A stretch of 64,000 nt of DNA from an uncultured Ruminococcus sp. (lineage in GTDB: Bacteria; Bacillota; Clostridia; Oscillospirales; Ruminococcaceae), in NCBI GenBank assembly GCA_902800795.1, contig CADCFQ010000002.1:62001-126000 (forward strand), written 5' to 3'. The notes under the pieces were generated by a model, which saw only the letters and a list, made by a program, of their open reading frames with translations, did not search any database and was not told the DNA's origin. The translations under genes and the position numbers were made by a program. Numbering within the stretch: position 1 is the stretch's first letter; the number at the start of each line of letters is the position of its first letter. Below, one piece after another: positions 44,087 to 48,716 of the stretch.

Positions 44087-45049
44087 TCAGAATGCAGTCT
44101 TCTGAAGGATGTCGTAAAGCTCGTCCTCGAAAGGCTTTTTCATGGAAAGAGCCTCCTGGATATCAACATCATAGATCTTGTTATCCTTCATTCCCACAAC
44201 TCTGTTGCCTATGCCCTGCTCGAGCAGCTCAACAGCATGGAAGCCCATCTTTGTAGCAATAACTCTGTCTCTTACTGTAGGCGAGCCGCCTCTCTGAACG
44301 TGGCCGAGAACTGTAGCTCTGGTCTCGATGCCTGTGATATCAGCGATCTGCTTTGTTATGTAGTCGGTCTTGCCAACGCCCTCGGCAACAACAACAACGA
44401 AGTGCTGCTTGCCTTCCTTTATAGCCTTCTGCATATTCTTAGCGATCTGGTCAAGGTCATAAGGCTTCTCAGGTGTGATGCAAGCCTCTGCGCCGACAGC
44501 AGCAGCAACATTGATAGCAATGTAGCCTGCGTTTCTTCCCATTACCTCAACTACCGAGCATCTGTCGTGAGACTGTGCGGTATCCTTGAGCTTGTCGATC
44601 ATCTCCATAGCAGTATTCATAGCGGTGTCATAACCGATAGTATACTCTGTGCAGGAGATATCGTTGTCGATAGTTCCGGGAAGACCTATGCAGGGAACGC
44701 CCTGTGCCGAAAGGTCAGCAGCGCCTCTGAAAGAGCCGTCTCCGCCGATAACAACTATACCGTCAAGACCCAGCTCGTCACACTTCTGCTTTCCAAGCTT
44801 AACGCCCTCGATATCACGGAACTCCGGACATCTTGCTGTATAAAGGCAGGTACCGCCTCTCTGGATGATACCGGAAACTGTTCTTGCGTTCATATCGATA
44901 TAATCGCCCTTGAGCAGTCCGTTATATCCTCTGAGGATACCGTAGACCTTCATTCCCTTTTCGAGACCCGCTCTGCATACTGCTCTGACAGCAGCATTCA
45001 TTCCCGGAGCGTCGCCTCCGCTTGTTAAAACGCCAATCGTCTTAGCCAT
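44087..45049 (-). CDS. pfkA: ATP-dependent 6-phosphofructokinase
   Basis: 320 residues, typical PfkA: GVLTSGGDAPGMNAAVRAV, GGDGSFRGA (ATP), PGTIDNDI and GHVQRGGSPT. Gly at both key positions indicates ATP as phosphoryl donor. It catalyses the committed step of glycolysis. AGGAGG precedes ATG 45049. It has its own promoter and terminator and contrasts with the atypical PFK at 29916. Confidence 0.96.
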   Translation of the reverse strand: MAKTIGVLTSGGDAPGMNAAVRAVCRAGLEKGMKVYGILRGYNGLLKGDYIDMNARTVSGIIQRGGTCLYTARCPEFRDIEGVKLGKQKCDELGLDGIVVIGGDGSFRGAADLSAQGVPCIGLPGTIDNDISCTEYTIGYDTAMNTAMEMIDKLKDTAQSHDRCSVVEVMGRNAGYIAINVAAAVGAEACITPEKPYDLDQIAKNMQKAIKEGKQHFVVVVAEGVGKTDYITKQIADITGIETRATVLGHVQRGGSPTVRDRVIATKMGFHAVELLEQGIGNRVVGMKDNKIYDVDIQEALSMKKPFEDELYDILQKTAF

Positions 45050-45178: not shown

Positions 45179-47065
45179 TTATGTGGGTTCGAGAACGCCC
45201 TGATCTCCGCCGTCTGCGGGCTGTTCAGGATTATCGGGCACCTCCGGCTCGGGAGCCTGGGTATCAGGAGCCTGGGTCTGAGTTGCCTGTGTCTGAGACT
45301 TTGTCTCCTCCGTAGCCTTGGTAGCCTCTGTGGTGGCCTCCGTGGTGGTCTCGGTCTTCTTGGTGACGAACGCCTTTGAAACGTTGACCGTGAGCACCTC
45401 GCCCTTCTCAACATTTATCGTGTTGCCCACAGCCACACTGGTGCTGTCGATATAGCCTGCACCGACCTTGTAGGAGTTGACATCAACGACCTTATACTTG
45501 ATATTGAGAGTATCCAGAAGCTCCAGATAATCCTTCTTGGTCATACCGTTGAAGTCAGGTATCTGAACATAAGGAGAGCCGCCGCACACAAGAAGCTCCA
45601 GCTCGGGCTTCTCGTTCGGGTCAAAATATGTGTCAGGCTCGATGGACTGCTCTTTTATTATACCGCCCGGCTCATTCTCATTGTAATAGTATTTCACCCT
45701 CATAGTGAACTGGTCTCCCAGCTGCTTCTGAACGGTGGCATACTCAAGTCCCACGACATTCGGCATTATAGCACCGGTCTCGTTTATAGAGGCTGTGGTG
45801 GCAGCAGTTGCACGGTTCTTGTCGCTGGCATAGTCGTCCTCTTCCTCGGAATAATCCTCGTCGTCAACGACTACGTGCTTGCTGGATGTGCTGCTGTCAT
45901 TATCGGAAGGTCCGGAGAACAGCTGATAAAGCAAGAACATTGCGCCGATAAGCACAAGACCCAGCACTATCCATCCGATGATGGCTGCTGCCTTATTTTC
46001 CTTCTTCGCCGGCTGAACAGGCTCCTGCTTCGCCCTTGCCTGTCTGGGTATATGCTGGATAGGTATAGTCTGTGTGGAGCCCTTCGGGTGCTCGATATGG
46101 GTCGGCTGCTTTGCGTCAAACAGCTCGGACACCAGCTCGGTAACGGTCTGTATCCTGTCCTCGCCCCTGACTCTCATAGCCCTTGAAAGCACATTTGATA
46201 TCTGAGCAGGTATCCTGGGGTTCACCTGTGCTGCATCCGGCAGCCTGTCATTTCTCATCCTCGAATACGCATCAAGCGGGATAGCGCCTGTGAGTATCCT
46301 GTATATCACAGCAGCTATGGCATAAACGTCTGTCCATGTGCCCTGCCACTCGTGAGAATCATACTGCTCGGGAGCAGTATATCCCGAATAGAACTCAGGC
46401 GCAAGACCGGTATCCGCCGTTCTCACCGAGCTTACGCTGAAGCCCGTGAGCTTGAGCTCGCAGTCAGTGGTAACTATGATGTTCTCGGGCGATATGCCCC
46501 TGTGGATGATACCTGCATTATGTATCATAGAAAGCGTGGTGAACAGAGGCTTGAACAGCTTTTTCACCTGTTCCCAGGAAAGATAGCCCTTGTTTGACTG
46601 CAAGAACTTTTTAAGGGATACGCCCTCAACATATTCAAGGATAACATAAGTAGTATTGTTTTCGGAAAAGATATCCTTTGCCTTTACAACATGATCGAGG
46701 TTTGTCATCCTCGAAAGTGTCCTGTTCACATCGGCAAACTCCGACATAAAGGTCTTATACTTTGCAAGGCAGTCAGGGTTGACCACCAGATCGTCCGTTT
46801 CCTTTTTTCTTTCGCAAAGGGTATCGGGCATATACTCCCTGGCAGTACATTTGCACTTGCCAACTGTATCATAGCAGATATAAGAAGCGCCTTCACCGTT
46901 ATATGAAAGCATCTTGCCGACAATATATCTGTTGTCCAGCAGAGTTCTCGGTGCTAAATAGGACTGAAGATGGGGGATATCGTCGGTGTAGCTGCAATGG
47001 TGGCAGACTCCGTCCTCGCCCAGCTCGTTCATACAGCCCATGCAAAGATTAACACTCGGCTCCAT
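45179..47065 (-). CDS. membrane PASTA-domain protein kinase homologue, catalytically degenerate
   Basis: 628 residues. Order: N-terminal Zn-ribbon (CMGC at 8-11, CHHC at 21-24), kinase fold (~46-305), linker, TM (~360-385), two PASTA domains (~440-575) and a Thr/Glu/Pro-rich tail. The kinase fold keeps the Gly loop and APE (APEQ), but the lysine of VAIK is Arg 76 (CTAREYMP), HRD is HRG (188-190) and DFG is GFS (208-210). All three catalytic positions are replaced, so it should be a pseudokinase that senses muropeptides through PASTA. RBS AGGAGG before ATG 47065. Confidence 0.88.
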   Translation of the reverse strand: MEPSVNLCMGCMNELGEDGVCHHCSYTDDIPHLQSYLAPRTLLDNRYIVGKMLSYNGEGASYICYDTVGKCKCTAREYMPDTLCERKKETDDLVVNPDCLAKYKTFMSEFADVNRTLSRMTNLDHVVKAKDIFSENNTTYVILEYVEGVSLKKFLQSNKGYLSWEQVKKLFKPLFTTLSMIHNAGIIHRGISPENIIVTTDCELKLTGFSVSSVRTADTGLAPEFYSGYTAPEQYDSHEWQGTWTDVYAIAAVIYRILTGAIPLDAYSRMRNDRLPDAAQVNPRIPAQISNVLSRAMRVRGEDRIQTVTELVSELFDAKQPTHIEHPKGSTQTIPIQHIPRQARAKQEPVQPAKKENKAAAIIGWIVLGLVLIGAMFLLYQLFSGPSDNDSSTSSKHVVVDDEDYSEEEDDYASDKNRATAATTASINETGAIMPNVVGLEYATVQKQLGDQFTMRVKYYYNENEPGGIIKEQSIEPDTYFDPNEKPELELLVCGGSPYVQIPDFNGMTKKDYLELLDTLNIKYKVVDVNSYKVGAGYIDSTSVAVGNTINVEKGEVLTVNVSKAFVTKKTETTTEATTEATKATEETKSQTQATQTQAPDTQAPEPEVPDNPEQPADGGDQGVLEPT

Positions 47066-47162: not shown

Positions 47163-47191
47163 ATAATATCAGCAGGGCGCCCAAATGTCAA
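47163..47191 (-). promoter_or_regulatory. promoter of pseudokinase gene
   Basis: TTGACA (47191-47186), 17-bp spacer, TATTAT (47168-47163). Confidence 0.8.
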
Positions 47192-47256: not shown

Positions 47257-48051
47257 TCACAGATCATAGGGATATACAAGCCTCGACTCATAGCTCTGAT
47301 ACTCGTCATCCGTATCCGAAACGACACTAAGGATAACAGCCTGTCTGTCACCGTTGTCACTCTTATACCAGTATTTATAGGTATAGGTTATGCTGTCCTT
47401 GGCATAGGTGACACTGTAGATATCCTCTCCTAAAATATCGATGATATCATCGATATCCGTTCCTGCCTTATACTTGTCAAGGTTTATCAGGCTGTCCTTT
47501 TTCTCGCCGGTGATATTATCCTCGACGGTCTTGAAATCCACATACCTGACAGTCTTAATATTGCCCTTCTTTGAATCATTGACAAAGATAGCCCACTCAG
47601 GATAGGTTATGCCGGAGATAGTTATATCGTCCTCGGCCTCCACCACGAAGTCAAAGTCAACAGCCTTGTTGAGCACATTGTAAGCGGACTTCTTCTTGAA
47701 CTCCTCTTCCAGCTTGCTCTCGGCGACCTCGGGTTTGGCGCCTATATACTCAGAGATCTTTTTCGCCTGCTTCTCACCCTTGGAGCCGCTTAATGCAGCG
47801 ATAAGCACTATCACAAGGACGATCACAAGCACAACGCCTGCGGCAGCAGCGATAAGCTTTGCCTTCTTCTCGGAGAACGCCCCTACGGGCATCTTTCTCT
47901 TTGCGGACTGAGGGTTGATATCTATAGCCTTGCGTTTATCAGCCAGGAGCTTTCTTGAAGCTGTCTCCGACTTTGCACCGAGCCTTGTTCCGCAGTTAGG
48001 GCAGACGGTCTCATTATCCGCCGCTTTTTTATGACACTTAGGACATTCCAT
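47257..48051 (-). CDS. zinc-ribbon membrane protein
   Basis: 264 residues. N-terminal zinc ribbon (CPKC at 3-6 and CPNC at 17-20), a basic linker, one membrane segment (~64-87, LIAAAAGVVLVIVLVIVLIAAL), and an extracytoplasmic domain (~95-264) with YPEWAIFVNDSKKG and repeated strands. Zn ribbon at the N terminus is shared with the neighbouring pseudokinase, suggesting that both are partners on the membrane. RBS GGGAGGTG before ATG 48051. Function unknown. Confidence 0.82.
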   Translation of the reverse strand: MECPKCHKKAADNETVCPNCGTRLGAKSETASRKLLADKRKAIDINPQSAKRKMPVGAFSEKKAKLIAAAAGVVLVIVLVIVLIAALSGSKGEKQAKKISEYIGAKPEVAESKLEEEFKKKSAYNVLNKAVDFDFVVEAEDDITISGITYPEWAIFVNDSKKGNIKTVRYVDFKTVEDNITGEKKDSLINLDKYKAGTDIDDIIDILGEDIYSVTYAKDSITYTYKYWYKSDNGDRQAVILSVVSDTDDEYQSYESRLVYPYDL

Positions 48052-48088: not shown

Positions 48089-48117
48089 ATTATAGCACAT
48101 TTATCTGCGCTTGTCAA
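48089..48117 (-). promoter_or_regulatory. promoter of zinc-ribbon gene
   Basis: TTGACA (48117-48112), 17-bp spacer ending TGTGC, TATAAT (48094-48089); near-consensus. Confidence 0.9.
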
Positions 48118-48126
48118 ATCAGGACA

Positions 48127-48157
48127 CAAAAAAAGAGCCGCTCCTAAGAGCGGCTCT
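48127..48157 (-). terminator. terminator of pilin gene
   Basis: AGAGCCGCTC/GAGCGGCTCT stem with T-run on the minus strand. Confidence 0.92.
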
Positions 48158-48194
48158 CATTTTAAGTTTTGATCTGTTAGGCTTTACACTCAGA

Positions 48195-48680
48195 TTAGAA
48201 AGACTTGCCGTTGAAGCCTGTACCCATTGTATGAGCCTTATCAGGATCCTTCTCAGGGTTAGGATACTGACCAACGATAGCTGCACCTGTACCGGTTGCC
48301 CACTGAGCAAGTGTTACTTCGCCCTCAGCATTGATGGCATACTTAGCAACGCCTACGCCGTCGCCGTTGTCCTTAAGTGCGTTGTAAACAGCGTTCTCAA
48401 CCTTATCCTGGAATCCAGTACCACTCTTAGCTGTAGGAGCTGCACCGTTTGTTCCACCGAATGTGAATGCTGTAGGATCCTCACCCTCAGCTACCATGTC
48501 AGCAGCCTGGTTGTTGGATGTTGTGAAGATCAGCTTAGCGTTAGAGTTAGCGCTCTTAAGTCTGGACTTCTTAACGTAGTTCATCATTGTAGGTACCAGG
48601 ATAGCTGCGAGGATACCGATGATAGCGATAACTACTACGAGCTCTACGAGTGTAAAGCCCTTCTGGTTTGACTTTTTCAT
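48195..48680 (-). CDS. type IV pilin-like protein
   Basis: 161 residues. The class III signal QKGFTLVELVVVIAIIGILAA is cleaved after Gly, leaving an N-methyl-Phe and conserved Glu 5. The C-terminal domain is short, Gly/Ala-rich, without a clear disulfide loop. Ruminococci carry similar pilins; R. albus uses one for cellulose adhesion, but no assembly genes are here. ATG 48680 has TATGGAGGG. A single gene with a 105-nt structured leader and strong terminator suggests high expression. Confidence 0.93.
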   Translation of the reverse strand: MKKSNQKGFTLVELVVVIAIIGILAAILVPTMMNYVKKSRLKSANSNAKLIFTTSNNQAADMVAEGEDPTAFTFGGTNGAAPTAKSGTGFQDKVENAVYNALKDNGDGVGVAKYAINAEGEVTLAQWATGTGAAIVGQYPNPEKDPDKAHTMGTGFNGKSF

Positions 48681-48716
48681 AGAAAATCCCTCCATAAAAA
48701 TATAAAAAATTGTTCT

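Follow-up and report, generated by a model that had tools for sequence, protein, structure and literature searches.

Bacterial pseudokinases are largely unstudied. A 2025 review describes seven families (ActPs1-3, GLW, CP1, DYD and DLHK), of which DYD is placed in the Firmicutes and defined by its DYD motif, and names SelO and SidJ as precedents for a repurposed pocket (PMC12599244). Among individual proteins, CD2148 of Clostridioides difficile is without canonical catalytic residues, shows no autophosphorylation and affects the PrkC-dependent phosphorylation of CwlA (PMC9674922, PMC8262956), and in mycobacteria PknB phosphorylates the pseudokinase domain of MviN/MurJ, to which FhaA binds (PMC6180346). 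Our search of the literature for a PASTA pseudokinase of Ruminococcus found nothing relevant.

The window analysed here, that is, the whole stretch of 64,000 nucleotides from an uncultured Ruminococcus sp., contains on its minus strand an open reading frame whose 628-aa product, like the clade to which it belongs, is very likely a pseudokinase, judging from its residues. From N to C terminus the protein consists of a zinc ribbon (CxxC-x9-CxxC, aa 8-24), a kinase-fold domain, one transmembrane helix and two PASTA repeats, encoded as follows.

45179-47065, minus strand: PASTA pseudokinase gene, 628 aa, stop codon within the coordinates
46994-47044, minus strand: N-terminal zinc ribbon (C8, C11, C21, C24), its cysteines invariant in 90 of 90 homologues
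46112-46933, minus strand: kinase-fold domain, aa 45-318 (Pfam Pkinase, 89 bits; AlphaFold2; PpkA match)
45917-45991, minus strand: single transmembrane helix, aa 359-383 (AlphaFold2 model)
45371-45778, minus strand: two PASTA repeats, about aa 430-565 (Pfam PASTA; model)
47163-47191, minus strand: promoter-like site 5' of the gene, TTGACA-17-TATTAT, 11/12 (consensus match only)

The zinc ribbon had no Pfam match, its sequence being too divergent. Nonetheless, the ribbon, membrane helix and pair of PASTA repeats, all named in an earlier sequence-only reading, were together borne out by Pfam, AlphaFold2 and the invariant cysteines, and PASTA was found in all 39 pseudokinase members scanned. With 39 aligned relatives as input, AlphaFold2 modelled most of aa 40-318 at pLDDT above 90, and the linker and tail with low confidence. 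The solved structure closest to the model was PpkA (5hnv; Z 30.7 over 277 residues, rmsd 3.1), followed by PknB, PknA and Stk1 at Z about 25, so that the nearest solved structures are those of active kinases. A phosphofructokinase gene (44087-45049) lies directly downstream on the same strand, an arrangement kept at approximately 15 of 61 loci, all in close relatives.

A bacterial Ser/Thr pseudokinase is generally recognized by a kinase fold in which at least one of the VAIK Lys, HRD Asp and DFG Asp is missing. The window protein has the fold, matching PpkA and PknB at Z 25-31, and all three residues are replaced, with VAIK changed to CTAR76 in beta3, HRD to HRG190 and DFG to GFS (G208, S210) in alignment with active relatives. 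The relevant positions are listed with their state among 90 homologues of the same family or in the clade.

46838-46840, minus strand: beta3 position R76, VAIK Lys replaced (alignment; R59 K26 H4 N1 of 90)
46496-46504, minus strand: HRG, the HRD catalytic Asp being G190 (Gly 87, Ala 3, Asp 0 of 90)
46436-46444, minus strand: GFS, the DFG metal-binding Asp being G208 (G77 D7 A3 S2 N1 of 90)
46727-46729, minus strand: alphaC Glu position, V113 (Leu/Val/Met in the pseudokinase clade)
46889-46906, minus strand: former glycine-rich loop SYNGEG, aa 54-59 (GxGG replaced)

Alignment with active PASTA kinases and other relatives, together with Pfam and AlphaFold2, confirmed the earlier observation that the fold is kept and that Arg, HRG and GFS occupy the three sites. 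That count was correct for the window protein, but two further losses had been overlooked, namely the alphaC Glu and the glycine-rich loop. The alphaC position is held by 31 Glu and one Asp among 32 active zinc-ribbon kinases and by Glu in six of six PrkC proteins. Similarly, the loop has the GxGG pattern in 32 of 32 active zinc-ribbon kinases (GxGGFG in active relatives) and SxNxE in the pseudokinases, where N56 and E58 are clade-specific. Beta3 Arg, moreover, does not extend over the family, so the constant loss is that of the HRD Asp. Residues that might have taken over the catalytic roles were looked for at the sequence level, and the alignment contained no clade-specific conserved Asp in compensation; E58, at the site of the former glycine loop, is the only new fixed acid.

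Throughout the bacterial family, the HRD Asp is lost without exception among the sequences compared. Removing near-copies (71 rows left) did not alter the residue picture of the 90 relatives, and relatives of the window protein with its GFS mostly have GF[S/C/A]. Among the members with names are Ruminococcus flavefaciens MA2007, Massilioclostridium coli and Angelakisella massiliensis. A second, separate scan, run on named genomes, gave 80 loci that likewise lack the Asp (Gly in 65 and Ala in 16, counting the window row), and it was absent too from the loci of 30 family genomes chosen among the most divergent. Such fixation at the level of the family shows the loss of motifs to be more than chance. 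All 90 homologues retain the structural residues (the HRD His, the APE Glu, Asp246 of WTDVY and the Glu after beta3), and N56, E58, Y103, K104, W164, F171, R215, A231, P232, P286 and S290 are fixed specifically in the clade.

The pseudokinase described in the sequence-only reading is real; it is, however, no peculiarity of one genome but near-universal in its family. Some match was found in 292 of 298 family genomes, and a pseudokinase-level match (single-sequence E < 1e-30) in all but 17 of the 298. Four of these 17 genomes are more than 90% complete, and the profile there shows only PrkC-type matches; since these four keep PrkC with no detectable pseudokinase, the protein may be dispensable. 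At the order level, full-length matches occurred only in the families labelled f1, f21 and f22, those elsewhere being PrkC or zinc-ribbon kinases, and at the class level strong matches outside f1 and f22 were to the kinase domain, with HRD and DFG unchanged in almost every case.

The kinase domain is not that of a broken PrkC, although the earlier assignment to the membrane PASTA type stands. In two maximum-likelihood trees (support given as SH-aLRT only) the pseudokinases formed one group (SH-aLRT 99-100) among the zinc-ribbon kinases of Clostridia, and PrkC was a separate, distant outgroup in both. The pseudokinases thus derive from Clostridial zinc-ribbon kinases by a single origin, the sister group of which the trees do not settle. 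Both trees, together with the zinc ribbon and the KEYxP motif held in common with zinc-ribbon kinases, rule out a degenerate copy of PrkC. Clostridial zinc-ribbon kinases (for example at L124, L125, L126 and L228, often in tandem arrays) have the same CxxC..CxxC ribbon, a KEYxP motif of the kind found after beta3 in the window protein, and the same layout, and are nearest in the trees, within which the window protein is nested. They differ in keeping an intact active site, with HRDISPDN, DFGAAR, the G-loop and the alphaC Glu, and most have other ectodomains. PASTA repeats of the PrkC type were found in seven of 62 zinc-ribbon kinase rows, in a single clade with intact motifs, two of the seven having six and eight repeats by Pfam. 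The repeats may therefore be older than the loss of activity; to suppose instead that a lineage without PASTA gained it independently is unsafe, given this intact-motif subclade and the unsettled sister group.

Two loci (L134:3157-7188 and L124:4163-7876) encode large zinc-ribbon kinases, 1237-1343 aa long, whose motifs are intact and which have 6 to 8 PASTA repeats together with Big or Flg_new domains; the tandem arrays in which they lie have the same order. Independent degenerate Clostridial zinc-ribbon kinases, with HGN for HRD, were seen at L126:9966-11858, L243:1-1849 and L245:996-2354, those of L126 and L243 lying within tandem arrays of active kinases.

Strong purifying selection acts on the kinase domain, which few parts of the protein match in constraint. 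Compared with the closest relative (L005), dN was 0.055 for the zinc ribbon, 0.066 for the kinase domain, 0.162 for PASTA and 0.61 for the tail, dS being about 1.6-2 where estimable and thus near saturation. Non-synonymous change in this comparison is approximately 2.5 times slower in the kinase domain than in PASTA, and the kinase domain is therefore functional.

As in PrkC, PknB and Stk1, the window protein has a cytoplasmic kinase fold, one transmembrane helix and a PASTA ectodomain, its PASTA pair being closest to repeats 1-2 of PrkC; it differs from them in the absence of the catalytic residues and the presence of a zinc ribbon, and in grouping far from PrkC in the trees. With the NF033483 model it scored 150.4 bits against a curated cut-off of 450, compared with 598.8 for the PrkC of the same genome. 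This PrkC (L136, G000:C10:88655) has intact VAVK, HRD and DFG motifs and three PASTA repeats, which answers the question raised earlier of whether an active-type PrkC exists elsewhere in the genome, and its gene is preceded by that of a PP2C-type phosphatase (named from sequence only). When the two PASTA repeats of the pseudokinase were made into a profile, it scored 100 bits against PASTA 1-2 of PrkC and at most approximately 27 bits against other PASTA proteins of this genome, and the PASTA repeats of the two proteins may reasonably be expected to have a common ligand class. The two genes are not adjacent, and the context of the pseudokinase gene differs between genera.

CD2148, likewise a second membrane kinase-like protein beside PrkC with replaced catalytic-loop residues, is the closest functional precedent, although it is reported to have no PASTA domains and is likened to the window clade by description. 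The MviN/MurJ domain (ActPs3) resembles the window protein as a wall-linked pseudokinase and PknB substrate (PMC6180346), but it is fused to a flippase, has no PASTA, has other motifs and is served by an FHA reader, a domain that was not found in this genome. Members of ActPs1-3, GLW, CP1, DYD and DLHK similarly have a kinase fold in which the loss of catalytic motifs is conserved, and are often membrane-bound, yet none of the seven families, as described in the review excerpts, combines HRG, GF[S/C], a zinc ribbon and PASTA (PMC12599244). The defining DYD of the Firmicutes family would lie where the window protein has GFS. We found no matching family among those so described, and the kinase atlas behind that review may hold an unnamed cluster.

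The predicted disordered linker between the kinase domain and the membrane helix contains a short threonine motif.

46064-46075, minus strand: juxtamembrane TQTI motif, aa 331-334, in the disordered linker (motif counts)

TQT[IVL] was present in 26 of 65 non-redundant pseudokinase linkers (shuffled mean 0.1) and the broader T[AQSVITK][TVIYSL][IVFYL] in 40 of 65 (shuffled mean 2.5); as the motif had been seen in the same sequences before counting, these counts are descriptive and no independent test. Related families had TxTI forms in nine of 13 linkers (shuffled mean 2.8). The linkers of active zinc-ribbon kinases were not enriched (13 of 61, shuffled mean 10.0), and we therefore rejected TQTI as an ancestral kinase feature. 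One zinc-ribbon kinase with intact HRD and DFG (L126:8730-9929) has two STQTI in its linker (NPSTQTIDTF and HSTQTIPKG). The TQTI-type threonine looks like a site of threonine phosphorylation. FHA domains (PF00498) occur in 15 of 29 genomes of the genus; since none was found in this genome, an FHA-based, FhaA-like reader was rejected here, and any reader of the linker threonine would be of another kind.

The second zinc-ribbon membrane protein reported beside the pseudokinase is real, and its gene and surroundings are as follows.

47257-48051, minus strand: neighbour with zinc ribbon, transmembrane helix (aa 61-87) and, tentatively, BLIP-like ectodomain (model)
48089-48117, minus strand: promoter-like site 5' of the neighbour gene, TTGACA-17-TATAAT, 12/12 (consensus match only)
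48133-48158: terminator-like hairpin just upstream of that promoter-like site

In the model of the neighbour (pLDDT 84.9), VIA-align found beta-lactamase inhibitor proteins to be the closest match of the ectodomain (Z about 9, rmsd 5-6, identity 4-12%); the BLIP-like fold remains a tentative call because Foldseek gave no match to the model at E 0.001 or better. The neighbour and pseudokinase genes have one promoter-like site each. The protein is encoded in about 41 of 198 family genomes (E < 1e-37), so it is not a universal partner, and it adjoins the pseudokinase in about 22, approximately half of those having it (coordinates compared by eye). A conserved operon was rejected as a clue to function, as context differs between genera and only this neighbour recurs widely. 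Assignment to a defence system was rejected too, the PADLOC matches being generic kinase-domain matches. Further upstream lies a prepilin-like gene with an N_methyl motif (48195-48695), separated from the neighbour gene by the hairpin.

Taken as a whole, the locus is best explained as a catalytically dead, membrane-anchored PASTA co-receptor or scaffold that probably works with PrkC, a reading that we favour with some reserve. The PASTA repeats would bring the pseudokinase to the cell-wall material sensed by PrkC, the cytoplasmic domain and zinc ribbon would act through protein binding, and the protein would modulate PrkC or present clients to it. Both the catalytic inactivity and the partners are our inference. 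PrkC as the specific partner is plausible, and the juxtamembrane TQTI-type threonine would be the best candidate for a switch phosphorylated by PrkC; in the core lineage, the adjacent BLIP-like zinc-ribbon membrane protein would be a likely further partner. A stricter form, in which the whole family would sense its wall through two PASTA receptors of different ancestry per cell, PrkC active and the other constitutively dead as its obligate allosteric co-receptor switched by phosphorylation of that threonine, is possible but doubtful. The protein might instead be a non-catalytic receptor independent of PrkC, forming its own sensor complex with the neighbour and recruiting a cytoplasmic effector through the pseudokinase domain. 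The neighbour lies directly upstream in at least 20 genomes of several genera, the two proteins are alike in having a zinc ribbon at the N terminus and a single transmembrane segment, and there is no synteny with prkC; however, most genomes that keep the pseudokinase are without the neighbour, and the PASTA repeats of the pseudokinase resemble those of PrkC, and we regard this reading as rather unlikely. Counting it in, a non-catalytic function as scaffold or co-receptor is likely. The protein is better explained, as proposed earlier, by a putative role as scaffold or allosteric sensor of the wall than by that of an enzyme.

Readings that place the function elsewhere are less probable. The pocket could be repurposed for other chemistry or for binding a nucleotide or other ligand through residues such as E58, R76/K76, R86, R189 and R215, since charged residues of the pocket region vary little or not at all within the clade, and the review offers SelO and SidJ as precedents (PMC12599244). 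Against this, 83 of 90 homologues lack the DFG Asp and the catalytic-loop Asn is kept in little over half, so the canonical metal ligands are missing, and no new conserved Asp was found, which makes such a role improbable. The universal presence of PASTA among the members scanned could also mean that these repeats are the working part, as a ligand buffer or wall anchor, with the kinase fold a structural remnant; a kinase domain that evolves more slowly than PASTA and has its own new fixed residues makes this very improbable. Although missing motifs by themselves speak for decay, a pseudogene or local sequencing artefact is refuted by conservation across the family, with open frames, one origin and strong purifying selection, and we give it practically no credence. 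In a family that is dominant in gut and rumen, a dead PASTA receptor of near-universal occurrence would make PASTA signalling a two-receptor system, and genomes with a single active receptor beside a single dead one would offer a clean genetic system for the function of bacterial pseudokinases.

The same genome encodes two further proteins with related features. One, on contig C9 (L280:1234-1698), is a small membrane protein of 154 aa that has just one PASTA domain. The other, on contig C12 (L003:1156-2502), is a divergent kinase-like protein of 448 aa with an internal CxxC..CxxC segment, and beside its gene lies that of a 356-aa leucine-rich-repeat-like protein.
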